Positions 916-25,894 of a stretch of 64,000 nt of DNA are shown piece after piece. The stretch's first letter is position 1. Each line of letters starts with the position of its first letter. Under the pieces are notes generated by a model. That model saw only the letters and a program-made list of their open reading frames with translations. It made no database searches and was not told the DNA's origin. A program made the position numbers and the translations under genes. Source of the stretch: Bryobacteraceae bacterium (lineage in GTDB: Bacteria; Acidobacteriota; Terriglobia; Bryobacterales; Bryobacteraceae); contig JAHCHE010000012.1 in assembly GCA_026129905.1 (NCBI GenBank), positions 162,042 to 226,041 of the forward strand, written 5' to 3'.

Positions 916-921
916 GGAGGC

Positions 922-2256: not shown

Positions 2257-2260
2257 GGTC

Positions 2261-11162: not shown

Positions 11163-12569
11163 TCAGCCGCCATCTCGTACGAGGGGGATGGTGAATCGGC
11201 ATCGGGTCCCTTGGCGTGGCTCGCTGGTGATGGCGATTTTGCCGCCGTGCGCTTGGACGATCCACTGGGCGATCGCAAGCCCAAGTCCGGTCCCGCCGCT
11301 CTCTTTCGACCTCGCTTTGTCCGCCCGATAGAAGCGTTCGAAGATGTGCGGCAGGTCATCCTTCGAAATGCCGACACCCGTGTCGCAGACTTCCGCGACA
11401 GCTTCACCACTTGTGGTTGACAGCGAGAGACAGATTCGACCGCCCTCGGGTGTGTACTTGACCGCGTTGTCAATGAGGATCAGGAACAGCCGGCGGATCG
11501 CTTGGGGATCCCCGTGGATCGAGACACCATCATCCAGAGGTAGGTCGGCCTGAAAGGCAGCGCCTTTCAGCCGGGCGAGCATCTCGCCTTGGACGGCGGC
11601 TTCGCGGGCGCAGGTCGCCAAGTCCATCGGCTCCCGCTGCAGACCGTCGCTTCCGGAGTCCGCCCGGGCGAGCATCATGAGGTTCTCGATCAATCGGGAG
11701 GTCCGGTCCAGTTCCATGTAGATCTGCTCGAGTGCTTCGCGATATTCCGTTTCGGAGCGTTCCTTGCGCAAGGCGATCTCGGAGATTGTCCGCATGAGGG
11801 TCACGGGCGTCCTGAGTTCGTGGGAAGCGTCGGCGGTAAATTGGGTCACTTTGCGGAAGGCGAAGTCCAGACGCTGGATCATGTCGTTGAGCGTTTCAGA
11901 GAGACGCTGGAGCTCATCGCCCGTAGCCGGAACGGCCAGCCGGGCCGAGAGGTTCTGCGCGCTGATGGAACGGGCCGTTCGAGTGATCTCATCGACGGGC
12001 GCCAAAGCCCGCCGGCTCAGCCAGTAGCCCCCGACGCCAGCGACCGCAAGAAAGACAGGAACTGCCGCACATAGAGTCCAGAAGAAGTCCGCAATGCCTT
12101 CATTCAGCTCGCTGAGCGGCGCGGCAACCTGGACGGTATACTGCCGGCCACTCACTACTGTGTTCTGCGAAAGCAGACGTAGCGGTGTTCCCTGGATCTC
12201 AATAGTCTCAAAGCGTTTTCCAGAGCCGATCTCGGCGGCCTCATAGATGGGCATCCGCTCGTCGTAGAAAGGATCGGAGCGATAGAGCCAGTTGCCGCCT
12301 TCCTCGGCCACTTGAAAAAGGTCTCCTCCTGGCCCAAGAACCGAGTGTTCCCGGAACTCCAGCCGTAGTGCTTCGAGCGGGAGAGATTCGCCCTGCTGCT
12401 CGATGAAGTGGGCAATGCCCACGACGCGGTCACGGAGTGTGTCGTCCACCGCGTGGTACAGGCTATTGCGCATGGCTAGCCACATGCCCGCCGCGAACAA
12501 AACCAGAGCGAGCGCGAGGACGGCAAAGTACCACAATGTGAGACGGGTTCGGATCGACTTTGTTTTCAC
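11163..12569 (-). CDS. Membrane sensor histidine kinase of a two-component system
   Basis: A 468-residue protein: N-terminal membrane helix (residues about 13-33), a periplasmic domain of ~130 residues, a second helix near 165-187, a HAMP linker (~190-240), a HisKA domain with the phospho-accepting histidine in D-A-S-H-E-L-R-T-P near 250, and an ATPase domain with N-box D-N-A-V-K-Y-T, G1 box D-T-G-V-G-I-S and G2 G-T-G-L-G-L-A. It resembles the CusS/QseC class, which often senses metal or envelope signals. It starts with GTG overlapping the response-regulator stop (GTGA), so the pair is co-translated. The signal is unknown. Confidence 0.93.
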   Translation of the reverse strand: MKTKSIRTRLTLWYFAVLALALVLFAAGMWLAMRNSLYHAVDDTLRDRVVGIAHFIEQQGESLPLEALRLEFREHSVLGPGGDLFQVAEEGGNWLYRSDPFYDERMPIYEAAEIGSGKRFETIEIQGTPLRLLSQNTVVSGRQYTVQVAAPLSELNEGIADFFWTLCAAVPVFLAVAGVGGYWLSRRALAPVDEITRTARSISAQNLSARLAVPATGDELQRLSETLNDMIQRLDFAFRKVTQFTADASHELRTPVTLMRTISEIALRKERSETEYREALEQIYMELDRTSRLIENLMMLARADSGSDGLQREPMDLATCAREAAVQGEMLARLKGAAFQADLPLDDGVSIHGDPQAIRRLFLILIDNAVKYTPEGGRICLSLSTTSGEAVAEVCDTGVGISKDDLPHIFERFYRADKARSKESGGTGLGLAIAQWIVQAHGGKIAITSEPRQGTRCRFTIPLVRDGG

Positions 12570-13246
12570 TCCGGCGTCTCCTCCCGGATCGAATACCCGA
12601 CACCTCTTATCGTCTGGATCAACCGGTTGTCGGGCTCTACCCCGATCTTCCTGCGTAAGAGCCGGATGAACGCGTCAAGGGTGTTGTTCTCGATGTCGCT
12701 GTCAAGCCCCCACACAGCATCGATGAGAGCGTCACGGGAGACGACCTTGCCCGATCGGCGCATCAAGTATTGCAGGAGGTTGAACTCCGTCTTCGTGAGC
12801 GTAATCTCGCGCCCGGATCGCAAAACGGTGCGGCTGGACGGATCCAGTTCGAGATCGGCGACGCGCAGGGTCAGGGGACGATGGTTCGCGCGACGGCGAG
12901 CGATGGTGCGGAGTCTGGCTAGCAGCACCTCGAAGGAGAATGGTTTGGTCAGGTAGTCGTCCGCGCCGAGATCCAAACCGGCGACGATGTCCGAGACGGC
13001 GTCCCGCGCCGTCAGCAGCAGTACGGGCGTGCTGTTTTGTGATCCCCGCAATCGCCGGACGATCTGAAAGCCATCGAGATTCGGGAGCATCACATCTAGC
13101 ACCACCACGTCGAAGTCGGAATGGAGTGCCAGTTCCAGCCCCAACTCGCCGTCCGCAGCCAGTTCCACGGAACACCCCTCCTCCTCGAGACCCTTCTTGA
13201 GGGAGGCGCTCAGCTTCGTATCGTCCTCAACGAGCAGTAGCCTCAT
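12566..13246 (-). CDS. OmpR/PhoB-family response regulator
   Basis: A 226-residue regulator. The receiver domain (1-115) has the acidic pocket E7-D8-D9, the phospho-aspartate in V-V-L-D-V-M-L-P near 51, the conserved T near 79 and K near 101. The C-terminal winged helix (~125-222) has the OmpR-class recognition region N-T-L-D-A-F-I-R-L-L-R-R-K-I. Members of this class bind direct repeats of about 11-bp period. Just upstream, on the same strand, is an ATGAAA/CTGAAA pair that reads as TTTCAT-N5-TTTCAG, the same motif that precedes six other genes in the next 12 kb. I infer autoregulation. Confidence 0.93.
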   Translation of the reverse strand: MRLLLVEDDTKLSASLKKGLEEEGCSVELAADGELGLELALHSDFDVVVLDVMLPNLDGFQIVRRLRGSQNSTPVLLLTARDAVSDIVAGLDLGADDYLTKPFSFEVLLARLRTIARRRANHRPLTLRVADLELDPSSRTVLRSGREITLTKTEFNLLQYLMRRSGKVVSRDALIDAVWGLDSDIENNTLDAFIRLLRRKIGVEPDNRLIQTIRGVGYSIREETPE

Positions 13247-13272: not shown

Positions 13273-13289
13273 CTGAAAAATGTATGAAA
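13273..13289 (-). promoter_or_regulatory. Direct repeat upstream of the two-component operon (site G)
   Basis: On the minus strand TTTCAT and TTTCAG are spaced 11 bases start to start, 27 bases from the response-regulator ATG. The match to the other six sites is weaker: one base differs in the first half and no clear -10 lies exactly 10 bases on, although TATTGT lies 8 on. It is back to back with site A, so one regulator could serve both directions. Confidence 0.45.
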
Positions 13290-13294
13290 CAAGT

Positions 13295-13327
13295 CTTCAG
13301 GGGATTTTCAGATTCGCTCCGTATAGT
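13295..13327 (+). promoter_or_regulatory. Direct-repeat operator/promoter A (CTTCAG-N5-TTTCAG-N10-TATAGT)
   Basis: CTTCAG at 13,295 and TTTCAG at 13,306 are 11 bases apart start to start, and the -10-like TATAGT begins exactly 10 bases after the second repeat. No good -35 hexamer is present: the expected -35 position falls on the spacer between the repeats, which suggests an activator-dependent promoter. The DUF5916 gene begins 23 bases downstream. Confidence 0.7.
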
Positions 13328-13350
13328 GGAGCTTTCGGTTCCGTTATCTG

Positions 13351-15501
13351 ATGCTCCAGACGCTCCATGCAGCTGCGGCCGTTCTTCTCCTCTGCGCAAC
13401 AGTCGCTCTTGGAGCACAACAGCCGACGGCAGACGCGCTGCGGATCCAGCAACGGATCACGGTGGATGGCGGCCTGAACGAGGCAAGCTGGCGGGACGCG
13501 GTTCCAATCGGGGAGTTCACCCAACGCGAACCAATCTCCGGTGCGGCCCCTACCGAGAGGACCGAAGTTCGGGTTCTGTACGACGAGCACTTCCTTTACA
13601 TCGGCATACGCTGCTTCGACAGTCGGCCCGGCTCAATTCTGGCGACTCAGATGGAGCGTGACGCCCAGCTCGATCAGGACGACCGAGTCGAGATTCTAGT
13701 CGACAGCTTCCAGGATGGGCGCAACGCCTACTATTTCGCCACCAATCCGGCTGGCGCTCTCGTGGACGGACGGATCACGGAAAGCAACAGTCCAGCGCTC
13801 GACTGGGATGCCGTTTGGGATCTTCGAACACAGATCGATGACCAGGGATGGACCGCCGAGTTCCAGATCCCCTTCCAGAGCATCGGATTCAACCGGCACG
13901 CGACGACCTGGGGATTCAACGTGTCCAGGACGCTTGCGCGGTTGCGTGAAGAGTCCCGCTGGGCTGCTTTCTCCTACGACGCGAGGTTCTACCAAGTAGC
14001 GCTAGCGGGGTCTCTGGGGAAGTTCGAGGGTCTCTCCCAGGGCGTAGGCATGGACGTCAAACCCTACGGGCTGACCGGCTTCACCCGTGATGTGACGCGC
14101 ACAGATTCCTTCACCGGCGAGCTGAACGGCGGGGTTGACGTTTTCTGGCGGGTGACCTCAAACTTGCTCTCCAGCACGACGATCAACACGGATTTCGCGG
14201 AGACCGAGGTGGATACCCGGCAGATCAACCTCACCCGGTTCCCGCTGTTCTTCCCGGAGAAGAGAGATTTCTTTCTGGAGGACGCAGGGATCTTCGAATA
14301 CGCAGGGAACGACCGGGAGTTCATCCCGTTCTTCTCCCGCCAAATCGGCCTCGTGAGCGGCGAGGAAGCGCCCATCCTGGTGGGCACGAAGCTCACCGGG
14401 AAAGCGGGGCGGCTCGACATTGGCTTGCTCGGTGTCAGAACCCGGGCCTCCGATGTGGCACCGGCGGAAACAGTTGCTGTTGGCCGGCTTAAGACGAATT
14501 TCTGGGACCAGTCTTATTTCGGGGTGATCTTCACGAGCGGCGAGCCGACTGGCGTGACGACGAACTCGCTCGCCGGCGCGGATCTAAGACTGTTCACCTC
14601 GGACTTCCTTGGCAGAGGCAAGAACGCCGGCTTCACTGCCTACGGAACAAAGACTCAGACGCCGGGCTTGACGGATCGTGACACGGCCTATGGCTTCGAG
14701 GTCTCCTATCCGAATGACCTTGTGGACGTGTCTTACCGGTGGCGGAACATTGGCGCGAACTACAACCCATCGCTTGGTTTCGTCGGCCGGCGCGGCGTCC
14801 GCCTACAGGACCTGAGCACCAGCTTCCGTCCCCGGCCGCACTTCTGGCATATCCGGCAGATGAACCATCAGCTCAACTACACCGAGTATTACGACACGGT
14901 GGAGCACGCCGTGGAAAGCCGCCGCATCTTCACTGCCCCGCTGAACTGGCGCTTCCACAACGGCGAGCACCTCGAGTACAACTGGGTGCCGACGTATGAG
15001 AGACTGTTCAAGCCGTTCGAGATCCGTCCCGGCGTCATCATTCCACCAGGGGGTTACTGGTTTCACCGCCACCGTTTCGAGTTCAACTCGGCACAGAACA
15101 AGCGCTGGATGTTCGACATGACCTACTGGGGTGGAACGTTCTACAGCGGCACAAGCCACGAGCTTCGTACGGCTGCGCTCTGGAGGAAGGACCGTCATCT
15201 GACAACCAGTTTTGAGCTTCAGCAATATTTCGTCGACCTCGCAGAAGGCGATTTCACCGAGCGCTTGGCACTCCTCCGGATCAATTACGCCTTCTCTCCG
15301 AGGCTCACCGTCTCCAACTTCGTACAATACGACACCGAGAGCCGGAACATCGGACTGCAATCGCGTATGCGCTGGATCTGGCGGCCCGGCAACGAGATGT
15401 ACGTCGTGTTCAACCACGCCTGGCAGGAAAATACGCTGGACCGCTTTGAGGCCTTGCGAACGAACTTCAGGGTGAAGGTGAACTACACCGTCCGGTTCTG
15501 A
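13351..15501 (+). CDS. CBM9/DUF5916-type outer-membrane beta-barrel protein
   Basis: A 716-residue exported protein. Residues 1-21 are a signal peptide ending A-L-G-A. Residues ~30-210 form a carbohydrate-binding-family-9-like domain (I-T-V-D-G-x-L-N-E-A-x-W, D-x-x-D-D-R-V-E-I, Y-x-F-x-x-N-P). The remainder matches the DUF5916 barrel, with the marker segment L-F-F-P-E-K-R-D-F-F-L-E near 300 and a C-terminal aromatic strand ending V-R-F. Function is not established; such proteins are thought to sit in the outer membrane and handle glycans or other ligands. It follows operator A and has a paralogue next door. Confidence 0.8.
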   Translation: MLQTLHAAAAVLLLCATVALGAQQPTADALRIQQRITVDGGLNEASWRDAVPIGEFTQREPISGAAPTERTEVRVLYDEHFLYIGIRCFDSRPGSILATQMERDAQLDQDDRVEILVDSFQDGRNAYYFATNPAGALVDGRITESNSPALDWDAVWDLRTQIDDQGWTAEFQIPFQSIGFNRHATTWGFNVSRTLARLREESRWAAFSYDARFYQVALAGSLGKFEGLSQGVGMDVKPYGLTGFTRDVTRTDSFTGELNGGVDVFWRVTSNLLSSTTINTDFAETEVDTRQINLTRFPLFFPEKRDFFLEDAGIFEYAGNDREFIPFFSRQIGLVSGEEAPILVGTKLTGKAGRLDIGLLGVRTRASDVAPAETVAVGRLKTNFWDQSYFGVIFTSGEPTGVTTNSLAGADLRLFTSDFLGRGKNAGFTAYGTKTQTPGLTDRDTAYGFEVSYPNDLVDVSYRWRNIGANYNPSLGFVGRRGVRLQDLSTSFRPRPHFWHIRQMNHQLNYTEYYDTVEHAVESRRIFTAPLNWRFHNGEHLEYNWVPTYERLFKPFEIRPGVIIPPGGYWFHRHRFEFNSAQNKRWMFDMTYWGGTFYSGTSHELRTAALWRKDRHLTTSFELQQYFVDLAEGDFTERLALLRINYAFSPRLTVSNFVQYDTESRNIGLQSRMRWIWRPGNEMYVVFNHAWQENTLDRFEALRTNFRVKVNYTVRF

Positions 15502-15523
15502 TGAAAAAGCGCTTGGTCGTCGC

Positions 15524-15556
15524 TTTCAGGTGATTTTCAGACATCCCGGTCACAAT
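15524..15556 (+). promoter_or_regulatory. Direct-repeat operator/promoter B (TTTCAG-N5-TTTCAG-N10-CACAAT)
   Basis: TTTCAG at 15,524 and 15,535, then a -10-like CACAAT at 15,551, exactly 10 bases after the second repeat. It sits in the 67-base gap between the two DUF5916 genes and 13 bases before the second one's ATG, so the second paralogue has its own controlled promoter. Confidence 0.7.
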
Positions 15557-15568
15557 AGGCGGGAGGAC

Positions 15569-17620
15569 ATGATGACTACACGCCTGCTGGCCGGATTGCT
15601 TGCCGTGCTGGCGCTTCCACTCGCTGCCGGGGACTCCCCTATCATGGCGGTGCGGACATCGACACCGCCTGTAATTGACGGCCGGATTGAGCCGGACGAG
15701 TGGCAGGGAGCAGCCCGTATTGACGGCTTCGTCCAGTTGGAGCCTGTCCGCGGTGCACCTGCCACGGAAAAGACTATCGCCTACTTCTTCTATGACGACA
15801 CACACCTGTACTTCGGCGTGCATTGCCTGGACAGTGATCCGGCATCGATCACCGCGCGCCTGAACCGCCGTGACGACAACCTGAACTCTGACGACTCGGT
15901 CACGATTGTCCTCGACACGTTCCACGATCGCCGCACCGCGTACTACTTCAGCACCAACCCCCTGGGGACTCAGTCCGACGGCCGTGTGCGCGACGACGGC
16001 CGGGTGAGTGACAGCAGTTGGGATGCGGCCTGGACGTCGGCGGCGCAACGAGTCGAAGATGGCTGGTCGGCGGAATTCGCGATCCCTTTCCGGGAGCTTA
16101 CGTTCAGAAAGGGCGAAGGCCAGATGTGGGGCTTCAATATCGGACGGACTCGCCGCAGCAGCCTCGAGACGTCGTTCTGGTACGGACCACTGGAGGGCGC
16201 GAACCGGATTTCCCAATACGGCGAGATCACCGGACTGGATTTGACGATGGGAGGCGCGAAGCGCTACTCCTTCATTCCCTACGTGCAAGGCTCCTACCAA
16301 CAGGACGGACCAACGCGGGGAACGGCCGGGTTGGATTTTCGGTATGTCGTGCGCCCCGAAACCATAGCCAACTTTACCCTCAACCCGGACTTCGCCATCA
16401 TCGAGGCCGACGAGGAATTCATCAACCTGACCCGTTACGAGGCGCGGCTCGAGGAGAAGCGCCCATTCTTCCTCGAAAGCAACGACCGCTTTCGGCAACG
16501 GATTCAGACTTTCTACTCACGCCGGGTTCAGGACATCGATGTAGGCGGCAAGCTGGTGTCCCGCCAGGGGCCCTGGGATCTGACCGTGCTCTCGATCCGC
16601 TCGCCAAACGTGCGGATTCCGGATGCGGCGCCGGATGGTGATCCTCTCGGCGCCGCCAACTATACGGTCGCCCGGGGCGAGCTGGGTTTCCTGGGTTCAT
16701 CGGCCGTCGGATTTCAAGTTGCCAATCGCAGCTTGCGCGGCGACAACACCGGCTCCGCCAGCGTGGACACGGCGATGCAGCTGACACGGAGGGTGAATCT
16801 TACCGCTCAGCTCGTTCGTTCCCATGGGCCGTATGGCGACGGCAACTACGGCTTTCTCGTACGACCCTCATACGACACCAACACGTTTCACATGCACTAC
16901 AGGTTCACGAGCCTCGGCGAACACTTCGCCGACAACATCAATGCGGTGGGCTTCGTTCAGGACGACGACCGGCGGGAGATGGACAGCGATATTGAGAAGG
17001 TCTTCTGGTTCGAAACAGGAGCCTTGCAGCGGGTGACGCTCTCGTCCAGGAACAACATCTTCTGGAGCCAAGCGGGGGAAGTGCGAGGCTACCACAATGG
17101 CGTTGGCGGCCAGGTCGATCTCAGAAACCGTTGGTTCTTTGCCACCCAATACACGAACCTCTACCGGCTCTTCGAGAAGGGCTTTCACAACGACACCGGG
17201 TCGGTGGAAGCCGGCTACAACGTGCGCGAGTTCAACTCCATTTCAGCCCAGTACGAGACCGGCAGAAACTTCGACTCGGATCTCAGGCAGGTTGGAGCCC
17301 GGTTCCGGCGTAAGCTGACCAATCAATTGTCCGCCGAGTACCAGTTCTCCAAGGTGTGGCTGGACCCGGATCCGGACAACCGGGCAACTTGGATCAACAT
17401 CCTGCGGGTACAGCAGAACTTCGGCCGCGACCTCTTCCTCAGGGCCTTCTACCAGACGAACTCGGTGATCGACCGAAGAAACGTCGAGGTGGTTTTCGTG
17501 TGGCGCCACACCCCGCCCTTTGGCCAGATCCAGTTCGCATTCCAGCGCGGGCGCGCGGAGTTCGGTGAACGGTCGCAACAGGGCAACACATTCTTTGTGA
17601 AGATGTCCCACGTTCTCTGA
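15569..17620 (+). CDS. Second CBM9/DUF5916-type outer-membrane protein
   Basis: A 683-residue paralogue of the preceding gene. It has a signal peptide (residues 1-20), a CBM9-like domain with P-V-I-D-G-R-I-E-P-D-E-W and D-D-S-V-T-I-V-L-D, a marker segment E-E-K-R-P-F-F-L-E-S-N near 305, and a C-terminal barrel. I place the start at 15,569, just after GGGAGGA; the upstream ATG at 15,530 lies inside the operator. The last 14 codons and the following promoter are duplicated at 18,762-18,862. Role unknown; co-control with a metal-type two-component system suggests an envelope function rather than simple polysaccharide breakdown. Confidence 0.8.
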   Translation: MMTTRLLAGLLAVLALPLAAGDSPIMAVRTSTPPVIDGRIEPDEWQGAARIDGFVQLEPVRGAPATEKTIAYFFYDDTHLYFGVHCLDSDPASITARLNRRDDNLNSDDSVTIVLDTFHDRRTAYYFSTNPLGTQSDGRVRDDGRVSDSSWDAAWTSAAQRVEDGWSAEFAIPFRELTFRKGEGQMWGFNIGRTRRSSLETSFWYGPLEGANRISQYGEITGLDLTMGGAKRYSFIPYVQGSYQQDGPTRGTAGLDFRYVVRPETIANFTLNPDFAIIEADEEFINLTRYEARLEEKRPFFLESNDRFRQRIQTFYSRRVQDIDVGGKLVSRQGPWDLTVLSIRSPNVRIPDAAPDGDPLGAANYTVARGELGFLGSSAVGFQVANRSLRGDNTGSASVDTAMQLTRRVNLTAQLVRSHGPYGDGNYGFLVRPSYDTNTFHMHYRFTSLGEHFADNINAVGFVQDDDRREMDSDIEKVFWFETGALQRVTLSSRNNIFWSQAGEVRGYHNGVGGQVDLRNRWFFATQYTNLYRLFEKGFHNDTGSVEAGYNVREFNSISAQYETGRNFDSDLRQVGARFRRKLTNQLSAEYQFSKVWLDPDPDNRATWINILRVQQNFGRDLFLRAFYQTNSVIDRRNVEVVFVWRHTPPFGQIQFAFQRGRAEFGERSQQGNTFFVKMSHVL

Positions 17621-17631
17621 CCCCGCTTCGG

Positions 17632-17664
17632 TTTCAGCCAATTTTCAGATGCGTTCGGCATGAT
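17632..17664 (+). promoter_or_regulatory. Direct-repeat operator/promoter C (TTTCAG-N5-TTTCAG-N10-CATGAT)
   Basis: TTTCAG at 17,632 and 17,643, with -10-like CATGAT at 17,659. It precedes the beta-propeller gene by 20 bases. Site and flanks are nearly identical to site D at 18,817-18,849, because a ~100-base block was duplicated. Confidence 0.7.
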
Positions 17665-17683
17665 GGGAGCGAAAGAGGCAACC

Positions 17684-18706
17684 ATGAATAAGAGTCAGAG
17701 GATGTCAATGGGGATGCTGGCGGCGTTCACGCTCGGATTGTTCTGCGCTGGCCAAAGCCCGGCAAGGGCACAGCAGAAGCACGTAATCGCGTATGTCACG
17801 AACTTCGGGGGTGACGGTATCTCTGTTATCGATCCGGTCGCCTCCCGTCTCGTTGCGCACGTGCCGACCGGCTCCAGACCTCACGGCGTCACCATCGCGC
17901 CCGATGGTAACGCCGTCTACGTCTCCAACGAAGGAGACGGAACCGTTTCGATTATCGATCCGCGCCGCAACGACGTCGTACACACCATCGCAGTCGGCAA
18001 GGAGCCGAACCAGCTCGCTGTGTCGGCGGATGGACGCCATCTCTTCGTGACACTCCACGGGCAGGACTCGCTTGCCGTCGTCGACATTGAGCGGAAGCAA
18101 GTCGTCAGGGTCATTCCCATCGGCCGCACTCCCCACATCGCTCTGCGCAGCCCGGATGGCAACACCATCTTTGTAACCAGTGAAGGCGATATGAAACTGG
18201 TCGCGCTCGATGCCAAGTCCTGGCAGGTACTGTTCGAGATCCCACTCTTCGGCTTTCCTCGCGTGCTGGCTGTCACGGCCGACGGATCACGAGCCTACCA
18301 AACGATGCGCTGGCTCAACGGCGTATTGGTTCTGGACCTGAAACAACAACACAAGGTGGTGGATCGGATCGCGTTCGAGGAACCGATATTCGCGCCCGAA
18401 GGGAAGGACGCGCACGGTCCCGACGTGACGCCCAATGGTAATGAACTCTGGCTCACGACACAGACATCGAACGACGTAGCAGTCATTCGGACCAGCGATC
18501 ACAAACTACTCGGCCGCGTTCCCGTCGGCCGCGATCCGAACTGGGTAGGCTTCACACCGGACGGTCGGCTGGCCGTGGTAAGCAACACAGGCTCGAACGA
18601 CGTCAGCTTGATCGATGTGTCTCTGCGAAAGGTAGTCGCCACGGTTCCTGTCGGTGAGTCACCGAAACGCCTCGCAGTCGGTTTGGTCGAGACGGGAGCC
18701 GAGTAA
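17684..18706 (+). CDS. YncE-like seven-bladed beta-propeller protein
   Basis: A 340-residue exported protein with a signal peptide (residues 1-29, ending A-R-A). It then has repeated ~42-residue blades of the YVTN type: V-T-N-x-G-x-x-x-I-S-V-I-D, V-S-N-E-G-D-G-T-V-S-I-I-D and a closing V-S-N-T-G-S-N-D-V-S-L-I-D, each followed by V-x-x-x-x-V-G-x-x-P. Family members are periplasmic or surface propellers with mostly unknown ligands. I use the ATG at 17,684 after AAAGAGG; the ATG at 17,660 overlaps the -10 of operator C. Confidence 0.82.
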   Translation: MNKSQRMSMGMLAAFTLGLFCAGQSPARAQQKHVIAYVTNFGGDGISVIDPVASRLVAHVPTGSRPHGVTIAPDGNAVYVSNEGDGTVSIIDPRRNDVVHTIAVGKEPNQLAVSADGRHLFVTLHGQDSLAVVDIERKQVVRVIPIGRTPHIALRSPDGNTIFVTSEGDMKLVALDAKSWQVLFEIPLFGFPRVLAVTADGSRAYQTMRWLNGVLVLDLKQQHKVVDRIAFEEPIFAPEGKDAHGPDVTPNGNELWLTTQTSNDVAVIRTSDHKLLGRVPVGRDPNWVGFTPDGRLAVVSNTGSNDVSLIDVSLRKVVATVPVGESPKRLAVGLVETGAE

Positions 18707-18757
18707 CGCTGAATCACTGACTCTCCTTTGAAGTGAGTCGCCGATGACCTTGCCGGT

Positions 18758-18805
18758 CAAGAACAGGGCAACACGTTCTTCGTCAAGATGCCGCACGTTC
18801 TCTGA
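18758..18805 (+). pseudogene. Relic 3' tail of a DUF5916 gene
   Basis: Sixteen codons read Q-E-Q-G-N-T-F-F-V-K-M-P-H-V-L-stop, nearly the same as the end of the DUF5916 gene at 15,569-17,620 (G-N-T-F-F-V-K-M-S-H-V-L-stop). The following 57 bases, including the direct-repeat promoter, are also copied. No upstream coding part remains. It marks a lost third paralogue or a short segmental duplication that moved the promoter. Confidence 0.75.
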
Positions 18806-18816
18806 GCCCGCGTTGG

Positions 18817-18849
18817 TTTCAGCCAATTTTCAGATGCGTTCGGCATGAT
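18817..18849 (+). promoter_or_regulatory. Direct-repeat operator/promoter D (copy of site C)
   Basis: TTTCAG at 18,817 and 18,828, -10-like CATGAT at 18,844. It lies 22 bases before the secreted LamG-like gene and is the probable promoter for that gene and perhaps for the ABC importer behind it, since no other promoter motif is visible up to 23,760. Confidence 0.68.
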
Positions 18850-18870
18850 GGGAGCGAAGGAGTCACAATT

Positions 18871-19512
18871 ATGGTGCGCATGATCACTACCATCTTGATG
18901 GGGGCAGCGATGCTCTCGGCGCAAACGATCAATTTCGATTCGGCCGCCGCCGGTTCCGTGCCGGGCGGCTGGTCTGTGGCAATGACCAGCAAGGGCGGAG
19001 CGCCGAAATGGGAGGTCCTGAGGGACGGCCCAGAAAACGTGTTGGCGCAAACATCGAACGATCGCACGAGCGGGCGGTTCCCGCTCGCCGTTTATGACAA
19101 GGTCAGCACCGCCAACGGCAAGGTCAGCGTCCGGTTCAAGCCGGTTTCCGGCCAAGGGGACCAAGCCGCCGGATTGGTGTGGCGTTATCGGGACGCGAAC
19201 AACTACTACGTTGTCCGGGCAAACGCCCTGGAGAACAACGTCGTGCTCTACAAGGTAGAGGGAGGCAGGCGCAGTTCCCTGGCTCCGAAGGGCACGGCGG
19301 CCGGCACCTACGGGGTAAAACACACCGTGCCGTCGAACGCCTGGAGCGCTGTTAGCGTGACGTTTCAGGGGAATCTGTTCACGGTTTCCTTCGACGGAAA
19401 GAAGCTCTTCGAGGTGGAGGACGGCACGTTTTCCGGCGCGGGGAGGGTCGGGCTCTGGACCAAAGCCGACAGCGTGACGTATTTCGACGATTTCCAGATC
19501 GAGGCGCAATAG
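18871..19512 (+). CDS. Secreted LamG/DUF1080-like beta-sandwich protein
   Basis: A 213-residue protein with a short signal peptide (residues 1-18) and a jelly-roll of the concanavalin/DUF1080 kind: A-A-G-L-V-W-R-Y-R-D-A-N-N-Y-Y-V-V-R-A near 105, then F-D-G-K-K-L-F-E-V and a closing G-R-V-G-L-W-T-K-A-D-S. These folds bind or cleave sugars, but no catalytic residues can be assigned. An ATG 9 bases on (18,880) is an equally good start. It ends 9 bases before the iron-binding protein gene, so they are probably co-transcribed. Confidence 0.65.
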   Translation: MVRMITTILMGAAMLSAQTINFDSAAAGSVPGGWSVAMTSKGGAPKWEVLRDGPENVLAQTSNDRTSGRFPLAVYDKVSTANGKVSVRFKPVSGQGDQAAGLVWRYRDANNYYVVRANALENNVVLYKVEGGRRSSLAPKGTAAGTYGVKHTVPSNAWSAVSVTFQGNLFTVSFDGKKLFEVEDGTFSGAGRVGLWTKADSVTYFDDFQIEAQ

Positions 19513-19521
19513 GCTGAAGGT

Positions 19522-20556
19522 ATGCGAATCACGATCGAAAGTCTGATCGCAGCGGCGGCACTCGCGTTCTTCACAGCCGGCTGCAACCGCACCTCGGACA
19601 AGCCGGCGGAGGTCGTTGTCTACTCCTCGGTCGACGAGGTGTTCGCCCGGCCCGTGGCTGAACGGTTTTCCGAAGACACCGACATTGCGGTGCGCCTTGT
19701 TCCGGACACCGAAGAGACAAAGAGCACCGGACTGCTGAATCGCCTGATCGCGGAGCGGGAGCGGCCCCAGGCGGATGTCTTCTGGAGCGGGGATCCCGTT
19801 CGTGCTGCAATTCTCAAATCGAAAGGCGTGAGCGAACCGTATCGCTCGCCGAACGCGGCGGCGCTGCCCGTGCTTTACAGCGACGCGGAGGGACATTGGA
19901 CCGGCTTCTCGGCGCGCGCTCGAGTGTTGATCTATAACAAGGAGCTGGTGGCGGAGGGCGAGGAGCCAAGGTCCGTGTTGGATCTGAACGATCCGCGGTT
20001 CCAGGGCAAAGCTTGTATCGCGAATCCCCTATTTGGCACGACGTCGATGCACGCTGCGGCGCTGTTCCAGGTGATCGGCGAAGAGAAGGCCCGCGACTTC
20101 TTCCAGCGGTTCATCGAGAATGGGGGCTCCATCGTCTCCTCCAACGGCGAGGTGCGCCGGCGCGTGGCGGCGGGCGATTTCGCTGTGGGCATCACCGACA
20201 CCGACGACTTCAACGTAGCGTTCCAGGAGGGGAAGCCGGTGGCAGCGGTGTATCCGGATCAGGACGGCATGGGCACGCTGATCGTCCCGAACGCCGCGGT
20301 GCTGGTGAGGGGCGGTCCGAATCCGGATGGCGGCAAGCAGTTCATCGATTACCTGCTGCGGCCCGAGACGGAGAAAGCGCTGGCTGAAAGCGAGGCCGCT
20401 CAGATGCCGGTGCGGCCGGGGGTCGCTGTCCCCGATTATGTCCAGCCCTTGGATGAGCTCCAGCCGATGCAGGTCCACTACGGGGAACTGGCGGACCTTC
20501 TTGAGCGATTGAGCGCGGGCTTCTTGAGAGAATGGGTGGAAGCGAGCAGCCGATGA
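19522..20556 (+). CDS. Fe(III)-type ABC importer, substrate-binding lipoprotein
   Basis: A 344-residue protein beginning with a lipoprotein signal (L-A-F-F-T-A-G-C near residue 20). The body is that of FutA/FbpA/AfuA-class ferric-binding proteins: V-V-V-Y-S-S-V-D-E near 32, A-D-V-F-W-S-G near 86, Y-N-K-E-L-V near 133 and a late P-V-R-P-G block. It would capture Fe(III) or a similar anion-coordinated metal outside the inner membrane. The stop overlaps the permease start by 4 bases. Exact substrate is not determinable here. Confidence 0.82.
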   Translation: MRITIESLIAAAALAFFTAGCNRTSDKPAEVVVYSSVDEVFARPVAERFSEDTDIAVRLVPDTEETKSTGLLNRLIAERERPQADVFWSGDPVRAAILKSKGVSEPYRSPNAAALPVLYSDAEGHWTGFSARARVLIYNKELVAEGEEPRSVLDLNDPRFQGKACIANPLFGTTSMHAAALFQVIGEEKARDFFQRFIENGGSIVSSNGEVRRRVAAGDFAVGITDTDDFNVAFQEGKPVAAVYPDQDGMGTLIVPNAAVLVRGGPNPDGGKQFIDYLLRPETEKALAESEAAQMPVRPGVAVPDYVQPLDELQPMQVHYGELADLLERLSAGFLREWVEASSR

Positions 20557-22136
20557 TTTCGGCCGCGGTCCTGGAGCGGCCGGGACGATGGCGCGTTCTG
20601 GGGCTGGCGGCCGGACTGGCGGCAGCGCTCCTGCCTGGGGCGCCTTTGGTGTGGGAAGTCGTGACAGGTGCAGGATCTGCGTCGGTCTTCGGCGGCGACT
20701 TTGCGTTAGCCGTGGGCCGCAGCCTGATCGTCGGGGGAGGCGCCGCCATATTGGCGCTTGTGGTCGGGTTTCCCACAGGGCTGCTGGCTGGCTTGTATCG
20801 GTTCCGCGGACGGCGCGTTCTGCTGGCCGGCGTTGCCTTGCCGTTGCTGATTCCGTCGTTTCTGTGGGCCATCGGCCTGTCGATGCTGCGTATCGAGCTG
20901 GGCCTGCCACGGGAAAGTCTTCTCTCGGGTGCAACCGGATGCATCTTCTCGTTCGCCGCGATCGGAGTGCCACTCGTAATCTTCGCCGTTCTGCTCGCGG
21001 TGGGTTCCACCGCGGCGAGCAATCTCGATGCGACACGACTGGCGGGCGGTGAGCTGGCAGTCCTTCGCTACGCCGGCCGGGCTTGTTTTCCAGCCGCGCT
21101 GTCCGCCTGTCTGCTCGGAGGGATTCTCAGCCTGGCCGATCCCGGACCGGGGCAGATCCTGGGATTCTCCGGCGCCGCCACCCAGGTGCTGGTCAGCTTC
21201 TCCGCACTGTATGACTTTGAACTGGCGGCGCGGCAGTGCATCGTGGTTGCCGGTGTCGTCCTGGCGGCCGCATCGCCGCTCGTCTGGTTCACAGCCGGCA
21301 AGCTGGCGGCCGGGCTTCTACCGCGGAACGCAACGCCGATGCGGCCGGCGCGATGGCCTGCCGCCGAATGGGCGGCGCCGCTGCTGCTGGGACTCGTATT
21401 CGCGCTTAGTGTGCTCGCGCCGGTTGCAGGGCTGGTGCAGCCGGTCCTCGGGCGCTTCTGGCTGGACCGCACCTGGGAAACGGTCGCCAGAACAGGAGCG
21501 AACACGGTGGTCTACGCACTCCTCGCGGGCCTTGTGGCGACGGGGCTTGCCACTTGGCTGGCAGTCTGCGCGGCGCGCGTGGCCTCACTGCGGATCGCAT
21601 TCGTTGCCGGCCTCATTGTAGTTTTCGTGTTGCCGCCGGCTCTGAACGCACTGGGCACGGCCTTGGCGGCGAGCGGAGCCCCGGCGTGGCTGGACCCCGT
21701 GCTGCGTAGCCGGCTGACCGTCGGGGCCGTACTGGGACTCCGATTGACGCCGTTGGCGGGGATTGTGCTGCTTCGGGCAATGTGTACAGCGCCAGCTTCG
21801 TGGGCGCTTGCGGCAGCCGTTCATGGGGTCCCGTTGGGGACGTACTGCCGACGCGTGCTTGCGCCGTTCCTTGCCGGTCCGATAGCGATCAGCGTTGCGC
21901 TGGTCGCACTATTGGCAACAGCAGACGTAACCACCGTGCTGCTGCTTCAGCCGCCAGGACAGAGTTCGTTTCCGGTCGCTCTGTTCACGGTAATGGCGAA
22001 CGCGCCGGAGTCGATGGTTGGGAGTCTAGCCCTGGCGTATGTCATGATTGCCTGCATCGCGATTGCGGCTGTACTCTTAGTGAACATCCTGGTAAAACCT
22101 CTCGCCTTGGCGCGCGGGTCCGTGAGTGCGACATGA
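20553..22136 (+). CDS. Fe(III)-type ABC importer, fused permease
   Basis: A 527-residue membrane protein made of two similar halves of about six helices each, as in FbpB/AfuB permeases that work without a second permease. EAA-like loops (e.g. D-A-T-R-L-A-G-G-E near 155) precede the coupling helices. I place the start at the ATG overlapping the binding-protein stop (ATGA); an ATG 21 bases upstream is possible. The stop overlaps the ATPase start by 4 bases, so all three importer genes are translationally coupled. Confidence 0.82.
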   Translation: MISAAVLERPGRWRVLGLAAGLAAALLPGAPLVWEVVTGAGSASVFGGDFALAVGRSLIVGGGAAILALVVGFPTGLLAGLYRFRGRRVLLAGVALPLLIPSFLWAIGLSMLRIELGLPRESLLSGATGCIFSFAAIGVPLVIFAVLLAVGSTAASNLDATRLAGGELAVLRYAGRACFPAALSACLLGGILSLADPGPGQILGFSGAATQVLVSFSALYDFELAARQCIVVAGVVLAAASPLVWFTAGKLAAGLLPRNATPMRPARWPAAEWAAPLLLGLVFALSVLAPVAGLVQPVLGRFWLDRTWETVARTGANTVVYALLAGLVATGLATWLAVCAARVASLRIAFVAGLIVVFVLPPALNALGTALAASGAPAWLDPVLRSRLTVGAVLGLRLTPLAGIVLLRAMCTAPASWALAAAVHGVPLGTYCRRVLAPFLAGPIAISVALVALLATADVTTVLLLQPPGQSSFPVALFTVMANAPESMVGSLALAYVMIACIAIAAVLLVNILVKPLALARGSVSAT

Positions 22137-22891
22137 CAGCACCACTTGTCGAGTTGAAGAATGTCACGATGCGGTACGGACAGGTGGAAGTTTTTCGGGA
22201 CTTCAATCTGCAGATCGCAGATGGTTGCCACTTTGCGCTTCTTGGTCCCTCGGGTTGCGGGAAGTCCACGCTGCTCCGGTTGTTCGCGGGCCTGCAACCG
22301 CCGGCCGTTGGTGAGGTTTGGGTGGATGGATCGCCGGCTTCGGTTGCCGGGGAAATCCGGCTCGCGCCACACAAACGCCGGTTCACAATGGTGTTTCAGG
22401 ACCTGGCGCTGTGGCCGAACCTGACCGTCCTGCAGAACGTCGAGTTAGGGCTCGCCGGCGCCGGGCTGGACCGGCGGGAACGGAGGGAGCGTGCGCTTTC
22501 CGCCCTGCGGGCATGCCGCATCGAGGAGCTGGGCAGCCGCCGGCCGGGCGAGCTTTCGGGCGGACAGCAGCAGCGGGCCGCACTGGCGCGGGCGTTAGCG
22601 CCGCAGCCACGGGCGCTGCTGCTGGACGAGCCGTTCTCGGGACTCGATATCGCCATCAAGGTTCACCTGTACGCCGAGATCACGCGCTTGTGCCGGGAGT
22701 TTGGCGTGACCGTGATCCTGGTGTCTCACGATCCCATGGAGGCGACGGCTTTGTGCTCTCACGGCGCCGTCATTGAGCACGGCGGCGTCCGCGAAGAGGG
22801 CCGGATTCGGGACTTGCTGCGGGCGCCGGTGTCCGAGACGCTGAGGGCCTTTGTGGACCAACTCCCGCAGGCATCAGGAGGGAACCACTGA
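22133..22891 (+). CDS. Fe(III)-type ABC importer, ATPase
   Basis: A 252-residue ABC ATPase with Walker A G-P-S-G-C-G-K-S-T near 39, Q-loop in M-V-F-Q-D-L, signature L-S-G-G-Q-Q-Q-R near 140, Walker B L-L-L-D-E-P near 162, D-loop S-G-L-D and switch histidine V-S-H-D. It would power the permease encoded just before it. The length is short for FbpC proteins, lacking their C-terminal regulatory domain. The start at 22,133 is in ATGA overlap with the permease. Confidence 0.88.
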   Translation: MTAPLVELKNVTMRYGQVEVFRDFNLQIADGCHFALLGPSGCGKSTLLRLFAGLQPPAVGEVWVDGSPASVAGEIRLAPHKRRFTMVFQDLALWPNLTVLQNVELGLAGAGLDRRERRERALSALRACRIEELGSRRPGELSGGQQQRAALARALAPQPRALLLDEPFSGLDIAIKVHLYAEITRLCREFGVTVILVSHDPMEATALCSHGAVIEHGGVREEGRIRDLLRAPVSETLRAFVDQLPQASGGNH

Positions 22892-23625
22892 CGACTCACT
22901 TTCTTGCTCGAACAACCATCGCGCTGGCAATCGGTTTCCTGCATGTCGCGCCGGTCGCTGCCCAGGACAGCGACCGGTGTTTCTTCCTCTGCCGACCCGA
23001 GCTGAAAATCGAACCTACGGTGACGGTGGAGAACTTGTTCAGCCGCCATCGCGTCGCCGAATTGGACTCGGAAGGGCAGGTGGTTTCCGTCACGCGGGCC
23101 ACGCGGGAGAAGGTGTTCGAGGTGATTGCCGCGCTGGATGTCCCGACCGAGATCCCCAGGGTCGGCTTCACCTTCGAGGCGATCTTTGTCCCGTTTGCCA
23201 AAGGGTCGCAGAATCCATTCACAGGCATGACCGCGCAAGATCTTGGCAGACGGTCCATCCGGGACAATCCACCGGAGGTCGAGATCGAGCTCAACCTGGA
23301 GTGGCTGCGCACCGAGGACACCAAGGGCTGGGTGGGGAGCCACTTCGACATCGTGGACAAGATCAGTCCCGCGGAGCGGCCCGGAGACACCGGCGCGTAT
23401 ACCCACAAGCTGAACTTCGAGCTCGACACCGCCGTGTCGGTCTTCAACTGGCTGCCCCAGGGCAACTGGCTGCGCAATATCGAAGTGGAAGGTTCGCTGG
23501 ACTACGTCGCCACGGGCCTGCCGCGCGCGGGCGACCGCTTCGGCAATGAAGTCTTCCTTGACAACGCAAGCGGCTGGTCGTTTTCACTCGTCTTCGTTAT
23601 CCCACTGGCGCCGCTGAGCCCATAG
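22888..23625 (+). CDS. Exported protein of unknown function, likely CTG start
   Basis: The frame encodes a good signal peptide only if read from a CTG at 22,888: a short cationic start, A-L-A-I-G-F-L-H-V hydrophobic core, and A-A-Q-D cleavage site. CAGGAGGG lies 6 bases upstream. The first GTG in frame (23,020) would remove the signal and a conserved-looking C-F-F-L-C pair. The mature ~215 residues alternate short beta-strands and end in a hydrophobic V-F-V-I-P-L-A-P-L strand. I do not recognise the family. Position after the importer ATPase (4-base overlap) suggests a role with that importer. Confidence 0.6.
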   Translation: MTTHFLARTTIALAIGFLHVAPVAAQDSDRCFFLCRPELKIEPTVTVENLFSRHRVAELDSEGQVVSVTRATREKVFEVIAALDVPTEIPRVGFTFEAIFVPFAKGSQNPFTGMTAQDLGRRSIRDNPPEVEIELNLEWLRTEDTKGWVGSHFDIVDKISPAERPGDTGAYTHKLNFELDTAVSVFNWLPQGNWLRNIEVEGSLDYVATGLPRAGDRFGNEVFLDNASGWSFSLVFVIPLAPLSP

Positions 23626-23760
23626 GAGATCTCGGAGATCGGCGTCTACTGTCTCGTCCGGAGATGCTTGACATGTAGCACCAGCACGATACCGTTCCGG
23701 GCCGCCCCCACGCGCATCTATCTCGGACGGGCGATCTGCGGCAGCCTACCCCTGGTGCCT

Positions 23761-23793
23761 TTTCAGGGAATCTTCAGGCGCGGAGTGTACAGT
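23761..23793 (+). promoter_or_regulatory. Direct-repeat operator/promoter E (TTTCAG-N5-CTTCAG-N10-TACAGT)
   Basis: TTTCAG at 23,761, CTTCAG at 23,772 and -10-like TACAGT at 23,788, with the same 11- and 10-base spacings as sites A-D. The chromate transporter ATG is 20 bases downstream. The 135 bases between the preceding gene and this site show nothing else I can name. Confidence 0.7.
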
Positions 23794-23812
23794 TAAATCA
23801 AGAATTCTGGGT

Positions 23813-24946
23813 ATGGCTACATCGCCGTCGCTGACCGAGTTTACGTTGTACTTTCTGCGGCTTGGAGCGATCGGATTCGGCGGGCCAATCGCTCTGGCGG
23901 GCTATATGCAACGAGACCTGGTAGAGACCAGGCAGTGGATCTCATCAGAGGAGTACAAGGAAGGTCTGGCCTTGGCGCAGCTGGCGCCTGGGCCGCTTGC
24001 CGCGCAATTGGCGATCTACCTCGGCTGGGTGCGCGGCGGTGTCCTCGGAGCCACGCTCGTCGGTGTGGCCTTCGTAGTTCCATCGTTTCTTATGGTTTTG
24101 GCCCTCGCCGTGATGTATCTTCGGCTGGGCGGGCTCCCCTGGATGCAGGGCATGTTCTATGGCATCGGAGCGGCGGTGATCGCGATCATAGGGCGAAGCG
24201 CGTACAAACTCGCCAAATCCACTCTTTCGAAGGACTGGCTCCTCTGGGCGATCTTCGCGGTGTCCGCCGCCTCCACGGCATGGACGGAGTCCGAAATCAT
24301 CTGGCTATTCGTGCTTTCCGGCATCATTGCGCTCGGCGTGCGGCAAGTGTCGCTTCACCGCCGTAGTGTCGCTGCTGTCCTACCCGTTTGGTTCATCTCC
24401 GGACTCCACGGGCCCGCCGGCGGCACAACGCTGGCTGCTCTGTTCTGGTATTTCGCAGAAGCTGGTGCGTTTGTATTTGGAAGCGGCCTGGCCATCGTTC
24501 CGTTCCTCTACGGCGGAGTCGTCCGCGACTTCCAGTGGCTGACTGAGAGGCAGTTCCTCGACGCGGTGGCCGTCGCCATGATCACCCCAGGCCCGGTGGT
24601 GATCACCGTGGCTTTCATCGGCCACCTGGTGGGGGGACCGCTCGGCGCCACGCTGGCGGCGCTCGGGGTCTTTCTGCCGTGCTACCTGCTGGTTGTGATT
24701 CCCGCCCCATACTTTCGTCGCTTTGCAGGCAATCCTCGTTTGAAGGCGTTCGTTGACGGTGTCACGGCAGCCGCCACGGGCGCGATCGCGGGAGCCGCCT
24801 TCGTGCTCGGCAAGCGGGCGATTGTCGATCTGCCGACCGCACTCATCGCCGCGGCTACATTGGTAGTCCTGCTCAAGATCAAACGGTTACCTGAACCCCT
24901 CGTTATCCTCCTGGCCGGAGGCGTCGGACTGGTACTTCGCGGGTAG
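23813..24946 (+). CDS. chrA: ChrA-type chromate transporter
   Basis: A 377-residue membrane protein with two homologous CHR halves. The N-terminal half has F-L-R-L-G-A-I-G-F-G-G-P near 10-23 and A-Q-L-A-P-G-P-L-A near 57. The C-terminal half has E-A-G-A-F-V-F-G-S-G near 215 and M-I-T-P-G-P-V-V-I near 258. ChrA exports chromate taken up through sulfate routes. Length and double-domain layout fit long-chain CHR proteins. A chrB-like gene follows 1 kb later. Its promoter carries the direct repeat of the two-component system. Confidence 0.88.
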   Translation: MATSPSLTEFTLYFLRLGAIGFGGPIALAGYMQRDLVETRQWISSEEYKEGLALAQLAPGPLAAQLAIYLGWVRGGVLGATLVGVAFVVPSFLMVLALAVMYLRLGGLPWMQGMFYGIGAAVIAIIGRSAYKLAKSTLSKDWLLWAIFAVSAASTAWTESEIIWLFVLSGIIALGVRQVSLHRRSVAAVLPVWFISGLHGPAGGTTLAALFWYFAEAGAFVFGSGLAIVPFLYGGVVRDFQWLTERQFLDAVAVAMITPGPVVITVAFIGHLVGGPLGATLAALGVFLPCYLLVVIPAPYFRRFAGNPRLKAFVDGVTAAATGAIAGAAFVLGKRAIVDLPTALIAAATLVVLLKIKRLPEPLVILLAGGVGLVLRG

Positions 24947-24952
24947 GGGCCG

Positions 24953-24985
24953 TTTCAGAAGGATTTCAGGTTCCTGAGCGATAAT
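24953..24985 (+). promoter_or_regulatory. Direct-repeat operator/promoter F (TTTCAG-N5-TTTCAG-N10-GATAAT)
   Basis: TTTCAG at 24,953 and 24,964, then GATAAT at 24,980, again exactly 10 bases after the second repeat. It starts 7 bases after the chrA stop and serves the DUF1259 gene and probably chrB. Confidence 0.7.
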
Positions 24986-24991
24986 CGCAGC

Positions 24992-25894
24992 ATGACTGGG
25001 ACACCAACCTTTTCTGCACTGGGGCTCGCGTTGCTTCTCGCAACGCCGGGCTTGTCGGCAATCTCGGAGGCTCAGAGGAACACGATCGATCGGGTGACTG
25101 GCGTCCAGGGCGCCTACACGGCCGGCGAGGATGTCTATCGCGTTACCTTCCCGCGCACTGATGTCAAGGTCTCAGTGGAAGGACGCTCCATGCACCCCTT
25201 CCTTGGCCTTACCTCGTGGGCGGCGTTCACATCGCACTCGCAGAATGAGCTGATGGTCATGGGCGATCTCGTGCTATTCGAGGACGAGGTGAATCCAGTG
25301 ATGTCAGCCGCTCTGGACAACGGCCTCGAGGTGACCGCCCTCCACAATCACTTCTTCTTCGACTCGCCGCGCGTGATGTTCATGCACATCGGAGGCAGTG
25401 GCGCGGCGGAACAGCTCGCGACGGCGGTTGCACAGGCAATGGACCAAGTCAAGGAGATTCGGAAAATGAATTCGGAGCCCGCCGCCAAGTTTCCCGGCCC
25501 CGCGGCTCCGGAAACGAATTCCATCACTGCCTCAACCATCGACCGCATCCTGGGAGTCGAGGGTCAAGCGGATGCGGGTATGTACAAGGTTGCGATCGGT
25601 CGTGAGGCCACGATGCATGGCAAGACAGTTGGCAACCAGATGGGTGTCAATACCTGGGCGGCGTTTGCTGGTACGGATGCCGCGGCGTTCGTGGACGGAG
25701 ACTTTGCGATGGTGGAGTCCGAGCTACAGCCTGTCCTGAAGGCGCTTCGGAAGGCGGGCATCAACATTGTGGCTATTCACAACCACATGACCCATGAAGA
25801 ACCTCAGTACGTCTTTCTGCACTACTGGGGCAAGGGTCCGGCCGCGACTTTGGCGAATGGATTGAAATCCGCTCTCGACGCGCAAGGCCGATAG
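24992..25894 (+). CDS. LppY/LpqO-like double DUF1259 protein
   Basis: A 300-residue exported protein (signal peptide residues 1-23) with two similar ~130-residue halves. Both have I-D-R-V/I-x-G-V-x-G near their start, a W-A-A-F segment, and A-L/I-H-N-H near their end (H-N-H-F-F-F-D-S-P and H-N-H-M-T-H-E-E-P). The paired histidines look like metal ligands, but the biochemical role of DUF1259 is unknown. It lies between chrA and chrB, and DUF1259 genes are seen near chromate genes elsewhere. It has its own copy of the regulon operator. Confidence 0.8.
   Translation: MTGTPTFSALGLALLLATPGLSAISEAQRNTIDRVTGVQGAYTAGEDVYRVTFPRTDVKVSVEGRSMHPFLGLTSWAAFTSHSQNELMVMGDLVLFEDEVNPVMSAALDNGLEVTALHNHFFFDSPRVMFMHIGGSGAAEQLATAVAQAMDQVKEIRKMNSEPAAKFPGPAAPETNSITASTIDRILGVEGQADAGMYKVAIGREATMHGKTVGNQMGVNTWAAFAGTDAAAFVDGDFAMVESELQPVLKALRKAGINIVAIHNHMTHEEPQYVFLHYWGKGPAATLANGLKSALDAQGR

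Follow-up and report, generated by a model that had tools for sequence, protein, structure and literature searches.

Tandem YTTCAG hexamers at a fixed distance from the -10 element mark a candidate OmpR/PhoB-type regulon in a Bryobacteraceae bacterium

A two-component system and six double-hexamer sites

The window analysed here, a stretch of 64,000 nucleotides from a Bryobacteraceae bacterium, carries on its minus strand the genes of a sensor histidine kinase and an OmpR/PhoB-type response regulator, and on its plus strand, beginning with the divergent neighbour of the regulator, a series of genes ahead of which two YTTCAG hexamers recur in tandem with five bases between them (Table 1). A first-pass annotation of this DNA had described six promoters with two TTTCAG-like hexamers and, exactly 10 bases past the second repeat, the -10-like hexamers TATAGT, CACAAT, CATGAT (twice), TACAGT and GATAAT. 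All six sites with these hexamers are found, and with C or T as the first base of each repeat the window holds 7 matches to the full pattern at up to two mismatches, 6 of which are exact, compared with a shuffle mean of 0.87. However, the independent promoters number five and not six, since sites 3 and 4 lie inside one 104-bp duplication whose two copies are identical at 94 of 104 bases; the second copy may perhaps be the sole remnant of a third DUF5916 gene. The start of the second DUF5916 gene (b in Table 1) was set 12 bases past the -10-like hexamer, at 15572, the longest open reading frame (ORF) beginning at 15530.

Table 1. Genes, predicted sites and duplicated segments of the window, together with the two sites on contig 1 of the same genome. 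Bits of the window sites were obtained with a matrix trained without the window sites.
Feature	Coordinates	Strand	Details
Sensor histidine kinase	11163..12569	-	Pfam HAMP, HisKA, HATPase_c; weak 2CSK_N
OmpR/PhoB-type response regulator	12566..13246	-	Pfam Response_reg and Trans_reg_C; recognition-helix stretch NNTLDAFIRLLRRK
Weak seventh site	13273..13289	-	TTTCATACATTTTTCAG; faces regulator gene; 12.0 bits
Site 1	13295..13327	+	CTTCAG-N5-TTTCAG-N10-TATAGT; predicted promoter of DUF5916 gene a; 37.8 bits
CBM9/DUF5916 protein a	13351..15501	+	Pfam
Site 2	15524..15556	+	N10-CACAAT; predicted promoter of DUF5916 gene b; 35.2 bits
CBM9/DUF5916 protein b	15572..17620	+	Pfam, run on longest ORF 15530-17620
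Duplication copy 1	17577-17680	+	104 bp; 3' end of DUF5916 gene b and promoter 3
Site 3	17632..17664	+	N10-CATGAT; predicted promoter of beta-propeller gene; 34.5 bits
YncE-like beta-propeller protein	17684..18706	+	Pfam YNCE, 71.7 bits
Duplication copy 2	18762-18865	+	104 bp; carries promoter 4
Site 4	18817..18849	+	N10-CATGAT; predicted promoter of LamG/3-keto-like gene, probably also of the ABC genes behind; 34.5 bits
LamG/3-keto-disaccharide-hydrolase-like secreted protein	18871..19512	+	Pfam 3-keto-disac_hyd, 23.1 bits (cut-off 26.8)
ABC transporter set	19522..22891	+	Solute-binding protein 19522-20556, putative permease 20532-22136, ATPase 22133-22891
Protein of unknown family	22888..23625	+	No Pfam match; last ORF ahead of site 5
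Site 5	23761..23793	+	TTTCAG-N5-CTTCAG-N10-TACAGT; predicted chrA promoter; 31.2 bits
ChrA-type chromate transporter	23813..24946	+	TIGR00937, 389.7 bits (cut-off 171.7); Pfam
Site 6	24953..24985	+	N10-GATAAT; predicted promoter of DUF1259 gene, probably also of ChrB_C gene; 29.3 bits
DUF1259 protein	24992..25894	+	Pfam
ChrB C-terminal-domain protein (ChrB_C)	25911..26321	+	Pfam
Contig-1 site	352954	-	Faces regulator gene
Contig-1 site	354272		Faces second DUF1259 gene

The regulator combines a receiver domain with a Trans_reg_C winged helix, both above the Pfam cut-off, and D8, D51, T79 and K101 (the phospho-acceptor aspartate and active-site residues) are invariant among 8 aligned regulators; its predicted operator is a direct repeat of 11-base period. 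Among named NCBIfam models, regulator and kinase come closest to heavy-metal subfamilies, yet both stay under the respective cut-offs, with 243.3 bits for the regulator against TIGR01387 (cut-off 279.2) and 280.5 bits for the kinase against TIGR01386 (cut-off 292.55). The regulator likewise falls below the cut-offs of the PhoB model TIGR02154 (196 bits, cut-off 296.2) and the CreB model NF008296 (172.3 bits, cut-off 273). Furthermore, an alignment of 14 kinases, whose sensor domains vary, showed no invariant Cys, His or Met in the sensor part. Because both scores lie below their cut-offs and the sensor part offers no such residue, a metal signal for the kinase does not appear to be supported.

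Next to the kinase gene, at 10698-11114 on the plus strand, lies the remnant of an outer-membrane barrel gene, which covers only positions 701-838 of the 838 positions of PF25183. Full-length genes of this family adjoin the kinase at the second locus of the same genome (L027:3357-5969) and in L096, and therefore the window has probably lost the barrel partner of its kinase.

Distribution of the sites with the regulator clade

As the first-pass annotation had proposed, the genome (8.57 Mb in 71 contigs) was scanned with the spacing fixed, and the motif proved not to occur at random frequency. TTTCAG-N5-TTTCAG-N11-ANNNT at up to one mismatch gave 8 matches genome-wide compared with 0 for the reversed pattern that served as control, and all 8 are confined to two loci, those of the two most similar regulators in this genome: the window has six of the matches and contig 1 the other two. 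At up to two mismatches, 22 matches were counted compared with 12 in the control, and the 14 extra ones look like background. The double hexamer without the -10 element gave 26 matches at up to one mismatch compared with 7 in the control; with these counts and with chance copies at unrelated regulators, it was rejected as a search pattern, the hexamer after N10 being needed for specificity.

Of all paralogues, the contig-1 regulator most resembles the window regulator (58 % identical, the next paralogue 43 %), and its locus comprises kinase, regulator, major-facilitator, DUF1259, LamG/3-keto-like and ChrB_C genes. Given this content and its two sites, a separate and unrelated place in the same genome therefore repeats the regulator, the operator and three target families.

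Within the family, orthologues of the regulator were found at E ≤ 1e-62 in 32 of 101 genomes (39 genes), and the flanks of all 39 were examined. The double hexamer, at up to one mismatch and within 150 bp upstream, precedes 20 of the 39 (shuffle expectation 0.1) compared with none of 20 other OmpR-type regulators, these 20 being the ones whose flanks were examined among 42 matches. With a leave-one-locus-out matrix (28 training sites, threshold at the 99.9% point of 2160 shuffles), an upstream site was detected in 32 of 47 clade members as opposed to 0 of 25 other OmpR-type regulators, none of which rose above even the 99% shuffle point. In a tree of 72 regulators, a branch with support 99/93 sets 47 rows apart, and every one of the 25 regulators with an upstream site is among them. 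The rows of this tree were the orthologues, the other OmpR-type regulators, ten regulators from 297 genomes of the phylum and three named ones (L173 to L175), the latter being the three best among 80 listed loci from a contig profile search, which were mostly other OmpR-type regulators. The nearest named relatives among the matches listed, from an uncultured Acidobacteriia bacterium and a Bryobacteraceae bacterium, both possess the site, and the same sites adjoin regulators in other families of the phylum. Furthermore, regulators with the site carry a recognition helix of the NTLDAF[IVM]xxLRxK type or close to it, while other OmpR-type regulators carry VDVYI or TVDVYI. At the level of sequence, the tracking of the clade by the site supports the earlier claim that these promoters are controlled by the OmpR/PhoB-type regulator beside them. 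In L267, a variant operator, GTTCAG-N5-GTTCAG-N10-TATGCT, lies about 54 bases upstream of a regulator whose helix reads NTLDAFMKQLR, a possible case of helix and half-site changing together.

For the count across genomes we used a strict pattern, YTTCAG-N5-YTTCAG-N10-YANNNT without mismatch; a first, broad pattern with up to one mismatch had matched in 68 of the 101 genomes, many of the listed matches being background-like, and was dropped for this purpose. The strict pattern matched 35 times in the 101 genomes compared with 2 times in the reversed control, and its matches occur in 19 of the 32 genomes with an orthologue as opposed to 2 of the 69 without (Fisher p 3e-10). Six of the 35 lie in the source genome, 10 in regulator loci and 19 elsewhere. 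At the DUF1259 loci of six genomes lacking an orthologue, no site was found at up to one mismatch, nor, for four of them, in a context of 11 to 14 kb. In G003, which has no regulator orthologue, homologues of the DUF1259, LamG-like, solute-binding and ABC ATPase genes follow one another on the same strand (L302, 2528-7134) and no site is present, a likely ancestral arrangement of the module whose genes are separated in the window.

Site pairs that face outward and stand back to back, 5 to 17 bases apart, occur between the regulator and its divergent neighbour in the window and in L087, L089, L090, L093, L096 and L263; one such stretch may serve both directions.

Genes behind the sites

The targets listed by the first-pass annotation were largely borne out in the window, as the pair of DUF5916 proteins, the propeller, ChrA and the DUF1259 protein were recognised by Pfam or TIGR00937, the latter placing ChrA within the CHR family above its cut-off. 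The protein named LamG, however, matches 3-keto-disac_hyd only, and below the cut-off, and the ABC transporter set, which probably belongs to the site-4 operon, had gone unmentioned; its putative permease has no Pfam match. Homologues of the DUF1259 protein (P0006, P0015, P0048 and others) are often fused to PF01451, a domain of the low-molecular-weight phosphatase/arsenate-reductase type, among the best 120 of 7999 scored. Elsewhere in the window, a gene for an ArsR-type regulator fused to a rhodanese domain (30779-31480) neighbours one for an ApbE-type flavin transferase (29620-30681), and an NrfD-domain protein (5897-7312) is encoded within a plus-strand ORF run (205-9619) that resembles alternative complex III, NrfD being the sole domain tested.

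Among the relatives, 57 ORFs downstream of sites were classified, a set that includes nine loci chosen by the pattern (L273 to L281). They comprise 18 regulators, 8 propellers, 8 TolC-type, 4 PepSY-like and 4 outer-membrane proteins, 3 DUF5916, 2 LamG-like, 2 DUF1259 and 2 ethylbenzene-dehydrogenase-like proteins, and 6 single cases. Pfam OEP supports the label of all 6 TolC-type proteins tested; the PepSY-like label found Pfam support in 2 of 2 proteins in one test, with no match for a third, and Pfam also backs the label of the L268 outer-membrane protein and, weakly, that of the L097 propeller. Four loci (L103, L140, L142 and L174) show the tagged TolC gene ahead of a gene of about 420 codons and an RND permease gene, all on one strand; none of these four permeases reaches a curated cut-off, while the CusA/CzcA model is passed by permeases encoded close to the L093 and L144 regulators. 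The regulator is also linked with DUF5916 genes in two other families of the phylum, divergently with paired sites in L263 and on the same strand in L266. Outside the regulator loci, 10 of the 19 strict matches face homologues of genes tagged at regulator loci, a count made without a random control, namely TonB-type outer-membrane proteins, YncE-like propellers, TolC-type and PepSY-like proteins. Because the sites of the relatives precede the regulator itself, TolC-membrane fusion-RND operons, propellers, PepSY-like and TonB-type genes, the system likely has a role in an envelope-stress and efflux response.

Mode of action, alternatives and known systems

Double hexamers collected without requiring a -10 element (36 exact, 35 distinct, in 893 kb of regulator-chosen loci) reveal that the 10-base spacing is a real peak: among the 35 distinct ones, YANNNT follows at spacing 10 in 17 cases, while none of the 18 other spacings from 3 to 21 yields more than 4. 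Each of the six window promoters was also compared with TTGACA at five possible -35 positions (spacing 15 to 19), and even the best position matched just 2 or 3 of 6 bases, in agreement with the first-pass description of 11-base repeats flanking a missing -35. With the site overlapping the missing -35 at a fixed distance to the -10 element, the predicted layout is that of class II activation. PhoP boxes that lie about 12 nt ahead of the -10 count as class II sites and activate (PMC3335776). Activation is likely the mode here too, because the spacing peak and the poor -35 coincide with a layout that in PhoP boxes marks class II sites.

Altogether, the window regulator probably binds YTTCAG-N5-YTTCAG as a dimer, and it is predicted to activate in place of the -35. 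In the mechanism that we propose, the kinase would sense envelope-level stress and phosphorylate the regulator, each half-site would take one winged-helix domain, and the bound dimer would touch sigma and recruit the polymerase to a promoter without -35, resulting in class II activation; in most cases the regulator would control its own gene too. The steps that lead from site to regulator have good support from sequence.

Several points weigh against this proposal. The site that faces the regulator gene in the window, which the first-pass annotation had listed as a seventh, weaker copy, is present but weak (12.0 bits compared with 29 to 38 for sites 1-6), and the hexamer at N10, GTAAGA, is not -10-like; its first half, TTTCAT, is also present in L143, L263 and L101. 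No passing upstream site was found for 15 of the 47 clade members, and 7 of these 15 have none in the DNA examined; the remaining 8 have one elsewhere in the examined DNA (9 sites, 0.2 expected). In L266 a site lies upstream of a DUF5916 gene located ahead of the regulator in the same orientation, and in L268 upstream of an outer-membrane gene located ahead of it. Strict matches are missing from 13 of the 32 genomes with an orthologue. Among the 80 named loci, exact double hexamers (L180, L200) and a one-mismatch copy (L235) stand upstream of regulators with other helices, with no -10-like hexamer; chance suffices to produce the double hexamer by itself. Part of the data later used for the strict-pattern and matrix tests had already served to refine the pattern, and the close relatives L093/L096 and L264/L265 were not jointly excluded from the leave-one-locus-out matrix. 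Finally, 25 of the 29 strict sites outside the source genome are followed within 60 nt by a start codon and an open frame, but 41% of random positions (689 of 1680) pass the same loose criterion, for which reason an ORF start behind the site was abandoned as a test; a corresponding count of 57 of 59 is likewise weak.

Instead of activating, the bound regulator might mainly repress, with the dimer over the -35 region blocking RNA polymerase until a signal arrives. A site overlapping the -35 position suits a repressor too, and a GC-rich spacer with a poor -35 is by itself no proof of activation. Nevertheless, we consider repression improbable, as an exact 10-base spacing and a -35 with at most 3 of 6 matches fit an activator that replaces the -35 and are needed by no repressor, and as PhoP boxes in the same position activate (PMC3335776). 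We regard it as very unlikely that the hexamers are the upstream element of alternative sigma promoters or the site of another factor, the regulator being a neighbour or another target. The site goes with the regulator clade rather than with other OmpR-type regulators or orthologue-free genomes, the recognition helix changes with the site, and a tandem pair of one hexamer with an 11-base period is what usually marks binding by OmpR/PhoB dimers; in favour of such a promoter element, a fixed distance to the -10 is typical of sigma-factor promoters as well, and 2 of the 69 genomes without an orthologue do contain a strict match.

The genes under sites 5 and 6 raise the question whether the system is a specific switch for resistance to chromate or another oxyanion, in which chrA and chrB_C would be the main purpose of the regulon. 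ChrA scores far above its cut-off, ChrB_C recurs at the second locus, and both the PF01451 fusions of the DUF1259 homologues and the ArsR-rhodanese gene would suit such a switch, which we nonetheless hold to be unlikely: in the relatives most sites stand ahead of efflux, propeller, PepSY-like and outer-membrane genes, with no chr genes among them, ChrA homology stands beside the regulator in one checked locus only (L102), and the sensor part of the 14 aligned kinases holds no invariant Cys, His or Met. Apart from the occurrence of chrA and a chrB-type gene, nothing supports a chromate, copper or iron signal. Next to no probability attaches to the motif being a by-product of duplicated DNA or chance, with no regulon behind it. 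Sites 3 and 4 do stem from one duplication, but the other four promoters have no shared duplicated flank in the regions compared and the same sites stand at regulators in other families of the phylum; the genome count of 8 compared with 0, the distribution of the strict pattern and the leave-one-locus-out matrix refute such an origin.

We see about an even chance that a distinct Acidobacteriota regulator family (helix NTLDAF) reads its own code, YTTCAG-N5-YTTCAG-N10-YANNNT, which would have spread as a movable promoter tag, by duplication and module capture, over DUF5916, DUF1259, LamG-like, propeller, PepSY-like and efflux genes. Promoters would have been placed on pieces of a module, as suggested by the untagged run of DUF1259, LamG-like, solute-binding and ATPase genes in G003 compared with its split in the window behind separate tagged promoters. 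If true, the tag would allow an entire stress regulon to be read from sequence throughout the phylum, and with it the function of its orphan genes. Acidobacteriota regulators are hardly mapped, and here the regulator, its operator and the spacing rule can be read together; one predicted switch over DUF5916, DUF1259, LamG-like, YncE-like and PepSY-like genes would offer a first experimental handle on them.

Among known systems, the pho box of E. coli PhoB consists of 11-base direct repeats in place of the -35, about 10 bases before the -10. The window sites share this period and distance, but the repeats of PhoB are of the CTGTCAT type and serve the phosphate regulon, and the regulator described here stays below the cut-off of TIGR02154. 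The E. coli CreB tag, TTCAC-N6-TTCAC, has the 11-base period and the TTCA core in common with the window sites, whereas the last base differs. The heavy-metal and redox regulators CusR, CopR and HprR (TIGR01387), with their CusS-type kinases (TIGR01386), are the best-scoring named models, and efflux operons are among the targets of the relatives; yet both scores lie below cut-off here, no conserved metal ligand is seen in the sensor part of the aligned kinases, and known CusR sites are palindromic. The closest solved chains by sequence include 9ji3 (176.6 bits), of mycobacterial PhoP, which binds direct-repeat sites of 11-base period but differs from the window regulator in its recognition helix; we know of no targets common to the two. 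The PhoP box of Salmonella (architecture I, class II) resembles the window sites as a hexamer direct repeat with N5, bound by an OmpR-family regulator over the -35 just upstream of the -10. It differs in its half-site (TGTTTA/GGTTTA instead of YTTCAG), in its distance to the -10 (about 12 bases, PMC3335776, instead of 10), and in regulator subfamily and targets. Our literature search found no description of the regulator clade, the half-site, the spacing rule or the target set, although most subscription papers lay outside this search and absence in print is not thereby shown. Direct-repeat activators of the PhoB/PhoP type are a known kind, of which this clade would be a member with its own half-site and spacing rule.

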